From contig CALAHN010000088.1 in the NCBI GenBank assembly GCA_937891825.1, positions 1 to 50,008 of the forward strand: a stretch of 50,008 bases of DNA. Reading direction: 5' to 3'. This DNA is from an uncultured Alphaproteobacteria bacterium. Its GTDB lineage: Bacteria; Pseudomonadota; Alphaproteobacteria; Bin95. The first letter of the stretch is position 1; each line of letters begins with the position of its first letter. The translations under genes were made by a program, and so were the position numbers. This document shows, in pieces, positions 15,687-23,377 of the stretch. A model generated the notes under the pieces. It was not told where the DNA came from. It saw only the letters and a program-made list of their open reading frames with translations, and made no database searches.

Positions 15687-15974
15687 ATGTCCCTGGATCG
15701 AGACACAGTCGCGCGGATCGCCGGATTGGCGCGAATTCGCGTCGATGCGGACGAATTGGATGGCCTTGCCGGCGAATTGAACGCCATCCTGAACTGGGTT
15801 GAGGCCTTGAACGCTGTCCCGACCGACGGCGTCGAGCCGATGATCGCCGTCGGCGCGACGCGCGCGCCGTTCCGGGACGATGTCGTGACGGAAGGCGATC
15901 AGGCGGACGCCGTGCTGAAGAACGCCCCCGATCCTGTTCCGCCGTTCTTCACCGTGCCGAAAGTGATCGAATAA
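15687..15974 (+). CDS. gatC: Aspartyl/glutamyl-tRNA amidotransferase subunit C
   Basis: 95 residues, the usual GatC length. Begins [17 protein letters not shown] and ends [14 protein letters not shown], both family hallmarks (the KVIE tail inserts into GatA). GatC stabilises the GatA-GatB complex that converts misacylated Glu-tRNA(Gln) or Asp-tRNA(Asn) to Gln/Asn-tRNA. GAAGGGG lies 10 bases before the ATG and can pair with the CCCC between it and the start, a small hairpin over the ribosome site. First gene of gatC-gatA-gatB; gatA starts 2 bases after its stop. Confidence 0.96.
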
Positions 15975-15976
15975 CG

Positions 15977-17473
15977 ATGGCCGACCTATCGGAACTGCTG
16001 GCCCTCGGCATCGCCGACGCGCGCGACGGCCTGCGCGCCCGCCGCTTCACCGCCCGCGAACTGACGTCTGCCTACCTGGCGGCGATGGACGAAGCCCGCG
16101 CGCTCAATCTCTACATTACGGAAACGCCGGAGCGGGCGCTCGCTGACGCCGACCTTGCCGATGCGCGGCTCCAGGCCGGCCACGCCGAAGCGATGACCGG
16201 CATGCCCATCGCCTTGAAGGATCTGTTCTGCACGGAAGGCGTTCGGACGACGGCGGCGTCCCGCATTCTGGGCGATTTCATGCCGCCCTATGAATCCACA
16301 GTTTCGGGCAAGCTGCGCGCGGCGGGCGCGGTGTTGTTGGGCAAGGCCAATCAGGATGAGTTCGCCATGGGCTCTTCCAACATTACGAGCGCCTTCGGCC
16401 CTTCGATCAATCCCTGGCGGGTGACCGGCGCCGGCGTAGGCGAAGCCTTGACGCCCGGCGGCTCCTCCGGCGGATCGGCGGCGGCGGTGGCTGCCGGCGC
16501 CGCCATCGCTGCGACCGGGACCGACACCGGCGGCTCGATCCGCCAGCCCGCCGCCTATTGCGGCGTCGTCGGCCTGAAGCCCACGTATGGCCGCTGCTCC
16601 CGGTGGGGGGTAATCGCCTTCGCCTCATCCCTGGACCAACCCGGCCCGATCGCGCGCTCGGTCGAGGATGCGGCGATCATGCTCGGCGCCATGGCGGGGC
16701 ACGATCCGAAAGATTCCACGTCCGCCGCACAACCTGTCCCGGACTTCGAGGCGGCGCTCCAGGGCGGGGTCAAAGGCATGTGCGTCGGCGTGCCCAAAGA
16801 CTACCGGGTCGACCCCATGCCGCCGGACGTGGAAGCTGCATGGGCGCGGGGCGTCGAGATGGCCAAGGCGGCCGGCGCGGAAATCGTCGAGGTCTCGCTG
16901 CCGATGACGAAACCGGCCCTGCCCACATACTATATCGTGGCGCTTGCTGAGGCTTCGGCCAATCTCGCGCGCTATGATGGCGTGCGCTATGGCGCGCGGC
17001 AGGAGGGCGCCGACCTGGCGGAGATGTACGCGGCGACCCGGGCCGAAGGTTTCGGCGCGGAGGTCCGCCGGCGCATCCTGATCGGCACATATGTGCTGTC
17101 CGCCGGCTATTACGATGCCTATTACAAGAAGGCGCAGCGCGTGCGCGCCCTGATCGCCCAGGATTTCAGCACTGCCTTCCAATCGGTCGACGTATTGTTG
17201 ACGCCGACGGCGCCCGGCCCGGCGTTCGGGCTGAACGAGAAGACGGAAGATCCGGTCGCCATGTACCTGAACGACGTGTTCACCGTTCCCGCCAGCCTTG
17301 CCGGGCTGCCGGCCATGTCCGTGCCGATCGGGTTGACGGCGAGCGGGCTGCCATTGGGCTTGCAGGTCATCGGGCGGCCGTTCGATGAAGCGAGCGTCTT
17401 GCGACTGGGGCGGGCGATCGAGGACGCGGCCGGGTTCGACCGAAGCCCCAGGCTTTTGGCGGGGGGCGTCTGA
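15977..17473 (+). CDS. gatA: Aspartyl/glutamyl-tRNA amidotransferase subunit A
   Basis: 498 residues. Amidase-signature enzyme with the Ser-cisSer-Lys triad: Lys81 in MPIALKDLF, Ser163 in [10 protein letters not shown] and nucleophile Ser187 in [12 protein letters not shown]. It releases ammonia from glutamine for GatB. A slightly extended loop before the GGSSGGS motif ([13 protein letters not shown]) is common in alphaproteobacterial GatA. Its stop shares one base with the gatB start (ATGGGC follows TGA overlap), indicating coupling. Confidence 0.97.
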
Positions 17474-18924
17474 TGGGCCAAGTTATCGAAGGCCGCGACG
17501 GTCCGTGGGAAATGGTGATCGGGCTGGAGACCCATGCTCAGGTCGTCTCCAAGGCGAAGCTGTTCTCTGGCGCATCGGCGGAATTCGGCGCGGCGCCGAA
17601 CAGTCATGTCGGCTTTTTGGACGCTGGCATGCCCGGCATGCTGCCCGTCGTGAACGGCGTCTGCGTCGAGGCGGCGGTCAAGACCGGGATCGCGCTCAAC
17701 GCGGCGATCAACCTCGTCTCGATCTTTGACCGCAAGAATTACTTCTACCCGGATCTGCCGCTTGGCTATCAGATTTCCCAGTTCTCCGATCCGATCGTGG
17801 GGAAGGGCCATCTCGACATCGAAACCGAAGCCGGGCCGAAGCGTATCGGCATTACCCGGCTGCATCTGGAGCAGGACGCCGGCAAGAGCTTGCACGATCA
17901 GGATCCGCTCCGAACCTTCATCGATCTCAATCGAGCTGGCGTCGGTTTGATGGAGATTGTCTCCGAGCCCGATATCCGGAGCGGCGAAGAAGCAGCCGCC
18001 TATGTGGCCAAGCTTCGGGAGATATTGGAAGATCTCGGCGTCTGCGACGGTAACATGGAAGAAGGGTCCCTCAGGTGCGACGTCAATCTTTCCCTGCGGC
18101 GGCCCGGCGGGCCGCTCGGCACAAGGACAGAAATTAAGAACATCAACTCCATCAGGTTTATCCGCCAAGCAATTGCCTGCGAGGCCGCGCGGCAGATAGA
18201 AATTCTGGAGGAGGGCGGCAAAATCCTTCAAGAAACTCGACTGTTTGATCCGGATATTGGTGAGACCCGGGCTATGCGGTCGAAGGAAGAAAGTCACGAT
18301 TACCGGTATTTTCCCGATCCCGATCTGCCGCCGCTGATTCTCGATCAGACATATGTCGACCAGATTCGAGCGACTATGCCTGAAATGCGAGGCGATCGTA
18401 GACGACGACTGGAGCGGGACAATATTCCAGCGGCAAACGTCGAAATTATAACTTCAAGTGCAAAATCTATGAACTATTTTACCGACATGTCGGAAAATTT
18501 TGAAGATAAAATACTCGCGTCCAATATAATGGTTAACGAAATAATGCCAAGAGTATTTTATAGAAACTCAAATCCTGACATAGAGCGGCTCCGGCCATCC
18601 GAGGCGAATACAATAATTAATATGATTTCTTCGGGAAATATTTCCGGCCGGCAGGCCAAGGAAGCCTTTGAGTTCATGTGGGAAGAAGGCAAGTCGGCGG
18701 CGGATGTCGTCGCCGAACGCGGCCTGGCGCAGATGTCGGATGACGGCGCGATCAAGGCGCTCGTCGATCAGGTGGTTGCGGCCAATCCCGACAAGGTCGC
18801 GGAATACCGTAGCGGCAAGACCAAGTTGATCGGCTTCTTCGTCGGGCAGGTCATGAAGGCGAGCCAAGGCAAGGCGAACCCGCAGGCCGTCAATGCGTTG
18901 CTGATGGCGCGCCTGGACGCTTAG
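17473..18924 (+). CDS. gatB: Aspartyl/glutamyl-tRNA amidotransferase subunit B
   Basis: 483 residues, normal length. N-terminal kinase-like cradle domain starts WEMVIGLETHAQV and includes NYFYPDLPLGYQISQ, LEQDAGKS and the YRYFPDPDLPPL motif. The C-terminal YqeY-like tail domain ends GKANPQAVNALL. GatB phosphorylates the misacylated tRNA side chain and uses ammonia from GatA. Odd: from about 18121 to 18645 (residues roughly 217-391) the DNA is strikingly AT-rich with ATA, AGA and AGG codons that are otherwise almost absent from the window, while both flanks have normal usage. The reading frame and conserved motifs stay intact, so the gene looks functional but mosaic. Confidence 0.96.
   Translation: MGQVIEGRDGPWEMVIGLETHAQVVSKAKLFSGASAEFGAAPNSHVGFLDAGMPGMLPVVNGVCVEAAVKTGIALNAAINLVSIFDRKNYFYPDLPLGYQISQFSDPIVGKGHLDIETEAGPKRIGITRLHLEQDAGKSLHDQDPLRTFIDLNRAGVGLMEIVSEPDIRSGEEAAAYVAKLREILEDLGVCDGNMEEGSLRCDVNLSLRRPGGPLGTRTEIKNINSIRFIRQAIACEAARQIEILEEGGKILQETRLFDPDIGETRAMRSKEESHDYRYFPDPDLPPLILDQTYVDQIRATMPEMRGDRRRRLERDNIPAANVEIITSSAKSMNYFTDMSENFEDKILASNIMVNEIMPRVFYRNSNPDIERLRPSEANTIINMISSGNISGRQAKEAFEFMWEEGKSAADVVAERGLAQMSDDGAIKALVDQVVAANPDKVAEYRSGKTKLIGFFVGQVMKASQGKANPQAVNALLMARLDA
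18121..18645 (+). other. AT-rich, rare-codon patch within gatB
   Basis: Seen directly: at least seven ATA isoleucine codons plus AGA and AGG arginine codons within about 175 codons, and runs such as AATATAATGG and CAATAATTAAT. The edges are sharp (after GGGCCGCTCGGC on the left and around TTTCCGGCCGGCAGG on the right). The patch spans the end of the cradle domain and the helical domain. It may be a recombined segment from a low-GC donor. Confidence 0.75.
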
Positions 18925-20476: not shown

Positions 20477-20532
20477 GGCGGCCGATCTGTCGCTTGGCGG
20501 GTCGATCGGGCGCTGAAGTAGCGACTGTAACG

Positions 20533-20566
20533 CGGCGGGGTCCCCCAACGGGGTCCCCGCCGTTTT
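20533..20566 (+). terminator. Intrinsic terminator after the outer-membrane protein gene
   Basis: A 13-base stem (20533-20545 with 20550-20562, a single T-T mismatch, loop CAAC) is followed by TTTT at 20563-20566. It lies 57 bases after the stop and separates this gene from the convergent TauD-type gene ending at 20583. Confidence 0.85.
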
Positions 20567-20582
20567 GCGTTCTGGACTACCG

Positions 20583-21647
20583 CTACGCCCCGCCTGGGAA
20601 GCCCTCGAGCAGGGCGCCGCGTTCCCGCAGAAACCGGGAATGCTCCGGCATGTACCAGTCCATTTTGCCCGGTCCATTGCGCAGACTTGCAGGATTGTCG
20701 AGCCAGAGGCGGACCAGATGGCGGGCGTGGCCGGGGTGGTCCTCGAAAGCCGTCCGGCTGTGCAGCACAAGAAAATTGTTCACGATCTGCAGGTCGCCAG
20801 GCTCGAGGGCCATTGAGACGCGATTCTCCGGCCGAGCGATGACGCTATCGATGAAGTCGAGCGCCGCGGTCTCGGCCGCCGTGATCTCGACGCCTTCAGC
20901 GGCGCAGTAGTCGATCGACGGGCGGATATAGACGATATGAAAGCGGTCGTCGTAATAGGCGAAGACCGGCGTCCGCCAGGGGGTGTAGGTCGGGTCGCCC
21001 GGGTCCCGTTCCTCTCGTCGGTGATGATGGAAGCCGCGTTCCAGGATCGGCAGCAGGTCCGGCCGCTCGTTAAGGACGGCATTGTAGATCGTGGCGCCGC
21101 TGACCAGGAGGCTGCAGCCGCCGCTTGGCGCTGTTTTCAGGCAGAGCAATGCGACCGAATTCGCGCCGTCGGCATGAAACGGCAGCTCCTTGTTGCCATA
21201 GTGCCCGCGCGCCTGTGGGCCGAGGCCGTTGCCCTTGTCTGAGACGTCGACGACATATTCCCCGATCCGGTTCTGAATGGCGATCTGACCGAAGTGCGAC
21301 ATCAGCCCGATATAGGCGAGCTTTGCGTCAGCTTCCGAATAGCGCTCGATCGGAAAGCCGGAGAGGAGGCCGAAGCCCGGTCCGACCTCGACCGCGTCGA
21401 TGACGTCCGCCAGGAATGCGGCGGCGCCGGGAAGCGGGAAATGCGCTGGCCGAACTTCCTTGGGCGCGAGGCCGGCGGCGCGGAGCCGGGGCAGGGCGCG
21501 GTCGATATCATCGATCAGGACGTCCGGGATCGGCCGGACCCAGGACCGGTCATCGAGAAAATCGTCCCGGCCCCAGACCGTCGCATCGGCGATGGGGCGA
21601 CCGGGCGAAATCCGGCCCAGGTTGTTCAACATGCTCGGCATCCTCAT
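20583..21647 (-). CDS. TauD/TfdA-family Fe(II)/2-oxoglutarate dioxygenase
   Basis: Up to 354 residues; starts at 21647, 21641 or 21632 are all possible (the last has GAGG 9 bases upstream). The iron triad and cosubstrate residues are visible: His158-x-Asp160 in LPFHADGAN, distal His296 in LVLHSRTAF and Arg313 in RHLVRLWLDNP. The family couples 2-oxoglutarate decarboxylation to hydroxylation or oxidative cleavage of small substrates (taurine, 2,4-D, carnitine relatives). Substrate not deducible. It is divergent from a ThDP enzyme with only about 56 bases between starts, which suggests one shared control region and possibly a shared pathway. Confidence 0.88.
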   Translation of the reverse strand: MRMPSMLNNLGRISPGRPIADATVWGRDDFLDDRSWVRPIPDVLIDDIDRALPRLRAAGLAPKEVRPAHFPLPGAAAFLADVIDAVEVGPGFGLLSGFPIERYSEADAKLAYIGLMSHFGQIAIQNRIGEYVVDVSDKGNGLGPQARGHYGNKELPFHADGANSVALLCLKTAPSGGCSLLVSGATIYNAVLNERPDLLPILERGFHHHRREERDPGDPTYTPWRTPVFAYYDDRFHIVYIRPSIDYCAAEGVEITAAETAALDFIDSVIARPENRVSMALEPGDLQIVNNFLVLHSRTAFEDHPGHARHLVRLWLDNPASLRNGPGKMDWYMPEHSRFLRERGALLEGFPGGA

Positions 21648-21703
21648 TGCGTTTGATCTAGGCTACTCTTTCCCGGACAGTGGCCACAAGCGAGAGAGAC
21701 GTC

Positions 21704-23377
21704 ATGAGCCTAGCGCCCCAAACCGCGGCGGAAGCGCTGCTGCTCCGCCTGAAGGCCCACGGCGTCGATACGCTTTTCGCGAACGGCGGCACTGACTTTG
21801 CGTCGATCATCGAGGCCTATGCCCGCGCCGGCGATGGCGGGGCATTCCCGGAGCCGCTGGTCATGCCGCACGAGACCGCCGCCGTCGCCATGGCGCACGG
21901 CCGCTATCTGATGACGGGCCGGCCGCAAGCCGTGATGGCCCATGTCACCGTCGGCCTCGCCAATTGCGTCATGGGGGTGATCAACGCCGCCGCGGACAAT
22001 GTGCCGTTGCTGATCATGTCCGGAAAAACTCCGATCACAGAAGGCAGCCGCCCCGGCGCGCGCGATGTCCCGATTCATTGGGGTCAGGATTTGCGCGATG
22101 TCTCGGCCATGGTCCGCAGCGCCTGCAAGTGGGAGTACGAACTGCGTTACGGCGAGGAAGTCGAAGCAGTCATCGACCGGGCGCTCGCCATCGCGATGAC
22201 GGAGCCGCGCGGGCCCGTCTATCTGGCCCTCCCACGGGAGCCGCTGGCGGAGCTGATGCCTCCGGGCTCGGCCAACACGCCGATGCGCGCGGCCGTTTCG
22301 CCAGCCGCGCATCCGGATCCCGCCGCGCTCGACGCCGCCGCGGCTGCTCTGGCCGCCGCGACGCGGCCGGTGGTGATTTCGGGCCGGGGCGACCCCGAAG
22401 GCGCGGTCGCCGCTGCGCTGACAGCGCTCGTGGAGCATGCAGGCGTCCCGGTTATCGAATTCTGGCCGACGCGGAACGTCCTGGCGAGCGATCATCCGCT
22501 CCATGCCGGCTTCGAGGCGGCGCCATTCCTTGCCGAAGCCGATGTCGTTCTAGTGGTTGACGCGCTTGTGCCCTGGATCCCGAACAAGGTGAAGCTAAGG
22601 GAGGATTGCACGGTCATTCAGTTGGGCGCCGACCCGCTGTTCGGGCGCTTCCCGGTGCGCGGGTTCCCGGTCGATATCGCGGTTGCCGGCGCGCCGGCGG
22701 CGGCGCTCCAGGGGCTCATGGCGCGCATCGCGGAGCGACGGGCAGCGGGGGACATGGCCGCCGCCGGGTTCGCAGCCGACCGCGCCAGCCGCGCCGCCAA
22801 GGCGCTTGAGGCGACTTCGCCGATGACGCCGGCGTTCGTCAGCGGCGCTGTCTCCAAGGCCATCGGGCGCGACGGCGTCGTCGTCAATGAACTGGGCGTG
22901 CAACCGGCCTATCTGACGATCGGCGGGCCGAACCGCTTCTTCGGGCATTCGCTCTCGGCGGGCCTGGGCTGGGGGTTTCCAGCCGCGCTCGGCATGGCTC
23001 ACGCGGACCGGTCGCGCCTCGTTGCGGCCTGCGTCGGCGATGGGTCCTACATGTTCGCGAACCCGGTCGCCTGCGGCCAGATCGCGGAGGCTCTGGGGCT
23101 GCCGATCCTGGTGGTCGTCATGCACAACGGCATCTGGAACGCGGTTCGGCGGGCGACGCTGTCGCTCTATCCCGACGGTCAGGCCGCGCGCGCGAACGCG
23201 ATGGCGATCACGTCCCTCGAGCCTGCGCCGGATTTCGCGCTGGTCGCGCGCGCCAACCGCGGCTGGAGCGAGCGGGTCGATGATCCGGCCCGGCTCGCCG
23301 GCGCGCTGGCGGAAGCGGTCACGGTCATCCGAAGCGAAGGGCGCATGGCCACAGTTGAAGTGATGGTCGGGTATTGA
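21704..23377 (+). CDS. Thiamine-diphosphate-dependent enzyme (acetolactate synthase/decarboxylase family)
   Basis: 557 residues from ATG 21704 with GAGAG 7 bases before it. Pyr domain with activating Glu57 in MPHETAAVAMAHGRYLMTG; central domain; PP domain with ThDP/Mg motif VGDGSYMFANPVACGQ and the matching Asn in MHNGIWN. The change of GDGxF to GDGSYMF and the NGIWNAVRRAT segment are like the 'ThDP-requiring protein' group related to oxalyl-CoA or sulfoacetaldehyde-type enzymes, not biosynthetic IlvB. Reaction unknown, probably a 2-oxoacid decarboxylation or ligation. Downstream GNAT gene starts within its stop codon. Confidence 0.87.
   Translation: MSLAPQTAAEALLLRLKAHGVDTLFANGGTDFASIIEAYARAGDGGAFPEPLVMPHETAAVAMAHGRYLMTGRPQAVMAHVTVGLANCVMGVINAAADNVPLLIMSGKTPITEGSRPGARDVPIHWGQDLRDVSAMVRSACKWEYELRYGEEVEAVIDRALAIAMTEPRGPVYLALPREPLAELMPPGSANTPMRAAVSPAAHPDPAALDAAAAALAAATRPVVISGRGDPEGAVAAALTALVEHAGVPVIEFWPTRNVLASDHPLHAGFEAAPFLAEADVVLVVDALVPWIPNKVKLREDCTVIQLGADPLFGRFPVRGFPVDIAVAGAPAAALQGLMARIAERRAAGDMAAAGFAADRASRAAKALEATSPMTPAFVSGAVSKAIGRDGVVVNELGVQPAYLTIGGPNRFFGHSLSAGLGWGFPAALGMAHADRSRLVAACVGDGSYMFANPVACGQIAEALGLPILVVVMHNGIWNAVRRATLSLYPDGQAARANAMAITSLEPAPDFALVARANRGWSERVDDPARLAGALAEAVTVIRSEGRMATVEVMVGY

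Follow-up and report, generated by a model that had tools for sequence, protein, structure and literature searches.

The window analysed here is the whole stretch of 50,008 bases, corresponding to bases 1-50008 of contig C88 from an uncultured alphaproteobacterium. The host genome is a 4.3 Mb draft in 163 contigs and is rated 99.97% complete with 0.29% contamination. The genes gatC, gatA, and gatB are arranged head to tail at 15687-18924:

15687-15974, plus strand: gatC, upstream of gatB in the same operon (Pfam GatC on 15708-15971; the start was chosen by us within the open reading frame)
15977-17473, plus strand: gatA, upstream of gatB in the same operon (Pfam Amidase; GC3 of 0.84, which is normal)
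17473-18924, plus strand: gatB, open reading frame and translation of 483 amino acids, the sole gatB found in its own genome

The encoded GatB displays the domains expected for this protein. Namely, the catalytic domain is recognized by Pfam GatB_N (E 4.5e-114, residues 14-295) and the C-terminal region by Pfam GatB_Yqey (E 1.8e-44, residues 334-481). The latter score is probably carried largely by the part that follows residues 305-383. The usual conserved residues of the helical domain, which are typical of the family and lie outside the Pfam definition, are largely missing from the window GatB. The nearest plasmid-borne GatBs belong to Azospirillum, Tistrella, and similar genera.

The gene for AsnRS, asnS, gave no match over the cut-off in any of the 14 genomes of the host family; glnS exceeded it in 10 of the 14, host included. 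GatCAB is therefore presumably needed for Asn-tRNA and not for Gln-tRNA, and since no AsnRS exceeded the cut-off, the window GatCAB presumably works. Amidation of Asp-tRNA-Asn would be its presumed activity, as judged indirectly from the lack of an asnS over the cut-off in 14 of 14 family genomes. A tRNA-Asn was not found in 99 stretches of the own genome and the window.

An AT-rich tract in gatB

The original prediction described an AT-rich segment with rare codons at 18121-18645, inside gatB, and this description was confirmed in part. The GC and GC3 values of the segment are 0.45 and 0.46, as compared with GC3 values of 0.77 before and 0.84 after it in the same gene. The codons ATA, AGA, and AGG make up 12 of its 175 codons, where 1.03 would be expected given their usage in 439,529 codons of this genome (binomial tail 8e-10). 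The reading frame is kept, as had also been stated. A two-step fit of GC3 along gatB placed the tract differently:

18220-18642, plus strand: low-GC3 tract, codons 250-390, with 9 rare codons among 141 (two-step fit; a left ramp fits equally well)

In this fit, GC3 is 0.76 before the tract, 0.41 within it, and 0.84 after it (BIC 581.3). The alternative fit is a ramp that starts at approximately codon 116 and stops abruptly at codon 390 (BIC 581.8). Thus, of the two abrupt edges claimed originally, the right one stands, but an abrupt left edge at 18121 is unsupported, since the step begins only at 18220 and the ramp describes the data equally well.

Within the 50 kb window, 225-base stretches below 47% GC occur nowhere but in the gatB patch. 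A broader survey covered 1,162 mechanically called open reading frames in 1.56 Mb, or 36% of the genome. The lowest GC over 60 codons was that of gatB (0.344); the next values were 0.383 and 0.472. Positions 18421-18645 have a GC of 0.356 as compared with 0.637 in host intergenic DNA, calculated from the 1.56 Mb sample with mechanically called frames. Only 12 of 7,663 tiles of 200 bases were below 42% GC, and the gatB tile alone among these was located inside an open reading frame. The gatB patch, with its AT-rich sequence and rare codons, is genuine, and no second one of its kind was seen in the surveyed 36% of the genome.

Several other AT-rich spots were recorded in the own genome. The second-lowest 60-codon stretch of the survey (0.383) belongs to L213 11030-11857. 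AT-rich starts of short contigs (L037, L177, L188, L189, and L191) yielded tiles of 34-42% GC outside called frames. The low-GC3 spots L029, L027, and L036 were judged by eye to be over-extended starts or doubtful open reading frames, and the AT-rich dips L026, L034, and L037 look intergenic or marginal.

The three codon positions of the patch are almost equally AT-rich. GC1, GC2, and GC3 are 0.35, 0.36, and 0.36 for residues 317-391 and 0.37, 0.34, and 0.36 for residues 317-383. In other GatBs with such GC3, a GC1 near 0.53 would be expected, so that the window value for residues 317-383 is unusually low (z -2.3). The same residues of GatBs from small AT-rich genomes display ranges of 0.37-0.48 (GC1), 0.22-0.34 (GC2), and 0.12-0.26 (GC3). 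The flat profile is compatible both with AT-rich foreign DNA that has gained GC at its third positions and with drift toward a balance rich in AT.

A further explanation is that a second function of the DNA, such as an overlapping gene, an RNA element, or the scar of a mobile element, forced the odd sequence. Two observations agree with it, one of them being an additional feature at the right edge of the tract:

18634-18645, no strand: perfect 12-base palindrome, noticed afterwards by eye and absent from the repeat listing at its length limit

The other one is a slightly stable predicted RNA folding (z -2.1), which was equalled by 6 of 200 shuffles. Against these stand stop codons in all five other frames of 18421-18645, the absence of Rfam matches in the window, and the absence of direct repeats in 17900-18900. 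The patch follows the GatB family in its own frame, and we rejected compensating frameshifts or an overlapping gene on these grounds. An RNA element was rejected given the Rfam result and the modest folding score. A repeat or second copy was dismissed as well: the patch sequence has no match elsewhere in its own genome, in which only one gatB was found. We therefore regard a second function of this DNA as very improbable.

Protein sequence of the helical domain

Comparison of the window GatB with those of three congeners revealed a second, narrower boundary, which the original prediction had missed:

18385-18621, plus strand: protein patch with sharp edges, residues 305-383, in the helical domain (step fit)

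Within the patch, 19% of residues match any of the three congeners, versus 86% outside (lnL gain of 70 for the step). Edges within 2 lnL units of the optimum are confined to residues 304-306 at the start and 382-386 at the end. Block-wise identities to the congeners are 66-89% for residues 1-308, 8-28% for residues 309-391, and 65-76% after residue 392. The congeners share 52-97% identity among themselves in the patch.

The claim that conserved motifs are kept did not hold here. At near-invariant positions, defined by conservation of 90% or more across 73 other GatBs, the window protein keeps only 5 of 18 residues in 303-391, as opposed to 152 of 154 elsewhere. With fast-evolving small genomes added (102 rows), it keeps 4 of 16 conserved positions in 303-383 and 109 of 110 outside the patch. 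The next lowest rows keep 6, 7, and 7 of these 16 and originate from genomes of 0.6-0.8 Mb. In its length class, domains, operon, and nearly full conservation outside the patch, the window protein resembles the bacterial GatBs of GatCAB, for which solved structures are available (3h0l, 2df4, 3al0, and 3kfu). It differs from them in residues 305-383, which keep a minority of the conserved helical residues and are encoded by AT-rich DNA with rare codons. A role in gripping and anchoring the tRNA is given for the helical and YqeY domains in PMC4027206.

A profile of other GatBs recognizes residues 303-391 with 31.9 bits; the best shuffle reached 4.0 bits and relatives scored at least 107. The left half obtained 11.6 bits versus 6.8 for its best shuffle. 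Homology of the right half alone is undetectable by profile, because its score of 3.8 bits is below that of its best shuffle (8.5). Hydrophobicity correlates with that of the family in register: r is 0.59 over the whole stretch, and the left and right halves reach 0.67 and 0.53, respectively. At other shifts of up to 8 residues, r did not exceed 0.28, and the share of 5,000 shuffles reaching the in-register value was printed as 0.0 in each case. The correlation is stronger in relatives (5th percentile 0.66, median 0.84, versus 0.59 overall in the window protein). An equally open frame was obtained in 21 of 5,000 shuffles. The in-register hydrophobicity together with the open frame suggests that the patch folds as a helical domain under selection and has not decayed. 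An AlphaFold model built from a two-row alignment was too poor to be given weight (mean pLDDT 45.5).

The same data bear on the idea that the contig misstates the gatB of this strain in the patch, through an error of assembly or consensus. The draft state of the genome would agree with such an error, as would the loss of residues retained by most GatBs from a gene on which Asn-tRNA formation presumably depends. The open frame, the hydrophobic register in both halves, and the high completeness and low contamination of the genome speak against it. Also, none of the other GatBs seen resembles the patch. A chimera of two genes of known type therefore offers no explanation, and a chimeric assembly seems unlikely. 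On balance, an error of this kind is improbable.

Similar tracts in other GatBs

Dips of GC3 were scanned in 169 GatB rows from 174 loci, after removal of rows shorter than 380 residues and of identical rows. These rows are a non-random selection of near kin, best hits to the patch, low- and high-scoring genomes, and some other classes, and a few genes are present twice (e.g., L124 and L145). The three strongest 60-codon dips, each below 1e-9, all fall into the helical domain. They belong to G069 (L260, G069:C75:40635-42176), G378 (L149, G378:C17:75023-76438), and the window. The dips that follow (1e-7 and 1e-6) map to the tail and N-terminus of GatB. No comparable dip was found in 76 gatA genes, where the strongest reached 2.5e-4. 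By our estimate, 3 of 169 gatB versus 0 of 76 gatA is by itself not a significant difference.

G069 and G378 represent other alphaproteobacterial families and possess a low-GC3 helical tract as in the window, but a milder one. The tract has a GC3 of 0.53 in G069, with 0.90 and 0.88 in its flanks, and of 0.47 in G378, with 0.84 and 0.81. Conserved helical positions are kept at 77% in G069, 62% in G378, and 19% in the window, and identity to near kin is lowered in the helical domain of both G069 and G378. In G069, a gatA frame is located directly upstream. The stretch comprises the lowest-GC 180 bases of the 12.3 kb read, contains an insertion of approximately 36 residues, and is missing a conserved Trp. 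The composition of its own codons 345-400 is nearly flat (GC1 0.45, GC2 0.39, GC3 0.45). In G378, the tract occupies its own codons 302-421 and has the second-lowest GC of the 15.7 kb read. Relative to G209, a family member without the tract, identity in 30-residue bins falls from 0.72-0.93 to 0.27-0.60. Residues 351-383 of G378 are nearest to other lineages (0.70 to L254) and not to G209.

GatBs from small AT-rich genomes (G030, G161, G338, and others) resemble the window protein in the loss of many helical residues and in low GC1. In these organisms, however, the whole gene is AT-rich and fast-evolving, whereas in the window gatB this applies to the patch alone.

Taken together, these cases could mean that local rewriting toward AT repeatedly affects the GatB helical domain in alphaproteobacteria. 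The tRNA-anchoring surface would be exchanged wholesale in place, with only the hydrophobic skeleton kept, in an enzyme that is single-copy and needed by the cell, and the window would be the extreme of the process seen in G069 and G378. We consider this generalization unlikely.

Loss of conserved residues is not tied to a GC3 dip. L250 (G157:C1:430703-432181), which is outside the eight strongest dips, keeps 58% of the conserved helical positions; the median in high-GC3 rows is 95-96%. Two further loci are unusual in other respects. L258, in one small genome, contains two gatB-like matches in tandem (G104:C2:19037-20335 and 20481-21926). In L253, gatB is split between two frames meeting near residue 411 (G385:C2:93080-94318 and 94320-94532), which may be due to a frameshift or a sequencing error.

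GlnRS exceeded the cut-off in 56 of 385 genomes of the class, including the window genome and G069 but not G378. Its distribution is uneven within families: in f57, G069 was positive and G190, G285, and G361 gave no match over the cut-off. GlnRS as a general cause of helical relaxation was rejected, since 24 positive and 77 negative rows did not differ in the share of conserved helical residues kept (p 0.62 and 0.74). This comparison used high-GC3 rows with the window left out; rows with a GC3 up to 0.55 were excluded, as were rows of unknown GlnRS state (most of the rows from the 102-residue phylum search, L007, L013, L015, and a few more). A link between GlnRS and the patch is at most a lead.

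Possible origins of the patch

Phylogenetic trees were calculated from 40 of the 169 aligned rows, chosen for near kin and spread. Separate trees had been suggested originally. In these, the window GatB clusters with the congeners in residues 12-216 (support 100), in residues 217-302 (support 83, not starred), and in residues 384-483 (support 97), and the middle is too diverged to place. The end branches of the window protein are 0.21, 0.26, and 0.12 changes per site in these three parts and 4.28 in residues 303-383. A free quick tree of residues 303-383 placed the window away from the congeners, but constraining it to group with them raised the likelihood by 7.3 (p-AU 0.62). Vertical placement is accordingly not rejected, and the trees provide no evidence for a donor.

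The three congeners have several rare residues in common. Of these, the window shares 2 of 3 in residues 217-302, 1 of 6 in residues 303-383 (against 0.5 expected), and 3 of 3 in residues 384-400. Those within the low-GC3 flanks are S274 and Y294 (217-302) and M384 at the right end. By plain identity, residues 259-302 are closest to two congeners, and residues 217-258 are closer to several other lineages.

The survey for a donor covered several collections. With an 80-residue query at E of 0.001 or less, matches were obtained in 3 of 385 genomes of the class, namely the own genome and two others at 27-28% identity. With a 102-residue query at E up to 5, 274 of 398 genomes of the phylum matched, the best other one at 32% identity. 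No donor was found in viral contigs or plasmids. The matches in phage records were to the conserved left part of the query. A 32-base piece inside the patch that also matched (E 0.6), in two entries for a single E. coli phage, was taken as chance. A species-wide peptide scan yielded one candidate only, L093 from an Anaerolineae MAG (64% over 22 residues). It was set aside as a chance match because its frame runs antisense inside another gene, which we take to encode a lipoyl acyltransferase. Outside the Pseudomonadota, coverage was limited to the peptide scan, the solved structures, and the collections of plasmids and phages. Among the titles listed on mosaicism, recombination, and horizontal transfer of gatB and GatCAB, none was recognized as describing such a patch.

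Mosaic genes that arise by intragenic recombination are of a known kind. The window gatB shares with them a delimited stretch whose composition looks foreign, in an otherwise conserved gene. It differs in that neither a donor nor a supported conflicting tree was found, and in that some of the AT-rich tract codes for congener-like protein. Even so, an imported and partly ameliorated AT-rich segment of the helical domain is the explanation that we tentatively prefer, and we slightly favour it over rewriting in place. The original reading, recombination with a low-GC GatB, thus narrowly retains the lead by virtue of the composition and the sharp protein edges.

We infer four elements, which are import, the kind of donor, amelioration, and retained function. 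The core of the helical domain would have been overwritten in a vertically inherited gatB. An AT-rich GatB segment, covering roughly residues 250-390, may have entered by intragenic recombination via the conserved sequence on either side. It would stem from a low-GC lineage not yet sampled, within the genus or among fast-evolving small genomes, in which the helical domain had diverged strongly beforehand. Partial amelioration would have followed, beginning with the third positions. The product presumably works, given its normal catalytic cradle and YqeY tail. The new helical domain, which keeps the hydrophobic spacing of the family, can probably fold and hold tRNA-Asn with a changed surface.

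Import is favoured because of the composition (GC of 0.356 versus 0.637 in intergenic DNA) and the sharp edges of the protein patch. The right GC3 edge is also sharp, GC1 is near that of GatBs from small AT-rich genomes, the frame is open, and hydrophobicity is in register. The genus includes a low-GC member (L005, gatB GC3 of 0.31-0.54 by block). A small-genome donor is conceivable as well, because the GatBs of such genomes have also lost helical residues (6-9 of 16 kept). The affinity of residues 351-383 of G378 to other lineages points in the same direction. On the other side, no donor emerged from the 385 class genomes, the 398 phylum genomes, the peptide scan, the viral contigs, or the plasmids. 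The low-GC3 flanks encode congener-like protein (217-302; S274, Y294, M384), vertical placement of the patch has the higher likelihood, the left edge may be a ramp, and GC1 is unusually low for its GC3. The lack of residues that most GatBs keep argues against import in its simple form. Recombination with a donor this diverged would be rare.

A serious, if somewhat less probable, alternative is rewriting in place. In this scenario, no donor was involved, and mutation biased toward AT changed this stretch of gatB very rapidly. Such a mutational bias is common to most bacteria. The essential flanks would have taken mostly silent AT changes, and the tolerant helical core would also have changed amino acids within the limits set by folding. 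Once its divergence prevents recombination with other strains, such a stretch could escape GC-biased gene conversion, a process described for bacteria in PMC4450053, and drift AT-rich; persistence of the tract might be explained in this way.

Rewriting in place agrees with the equal depression of all codon positions (0.35-0.36 in residues 317-391) and with the run of the AT shift into flanks that encode congener-like protein. It is also in line with the vertical placement, the fruitless donor searches, the possible left ramp, and the milder tracts in the same domain of two unrelated GatBs, of which that of G069 is nearly flat by codon position. However, host intergenic DNA is 63.7% GC, so that a value of 36% is not one that ordinary drift would reach here. 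The protein edges are sharp, and end branches of 4.28 versus 0.12-0.26 call for a local acceleration of approximately 16- to 36-fold. No other sampled frame is alike, with the low stretch in L213 as a potential exception. We know of no described mechanism for such local AT-biased rewriting.

Whichever of these routes was taken, the gene would offer a natural GatB that lacks most conserved helical residues, in a genome with no AsnRS over the cut-off. It would show which features of the tRNA anchor matter. It would also be a compact case for how an AT-rich tract arises and lasts inside a core gene of a GC-rich genome.
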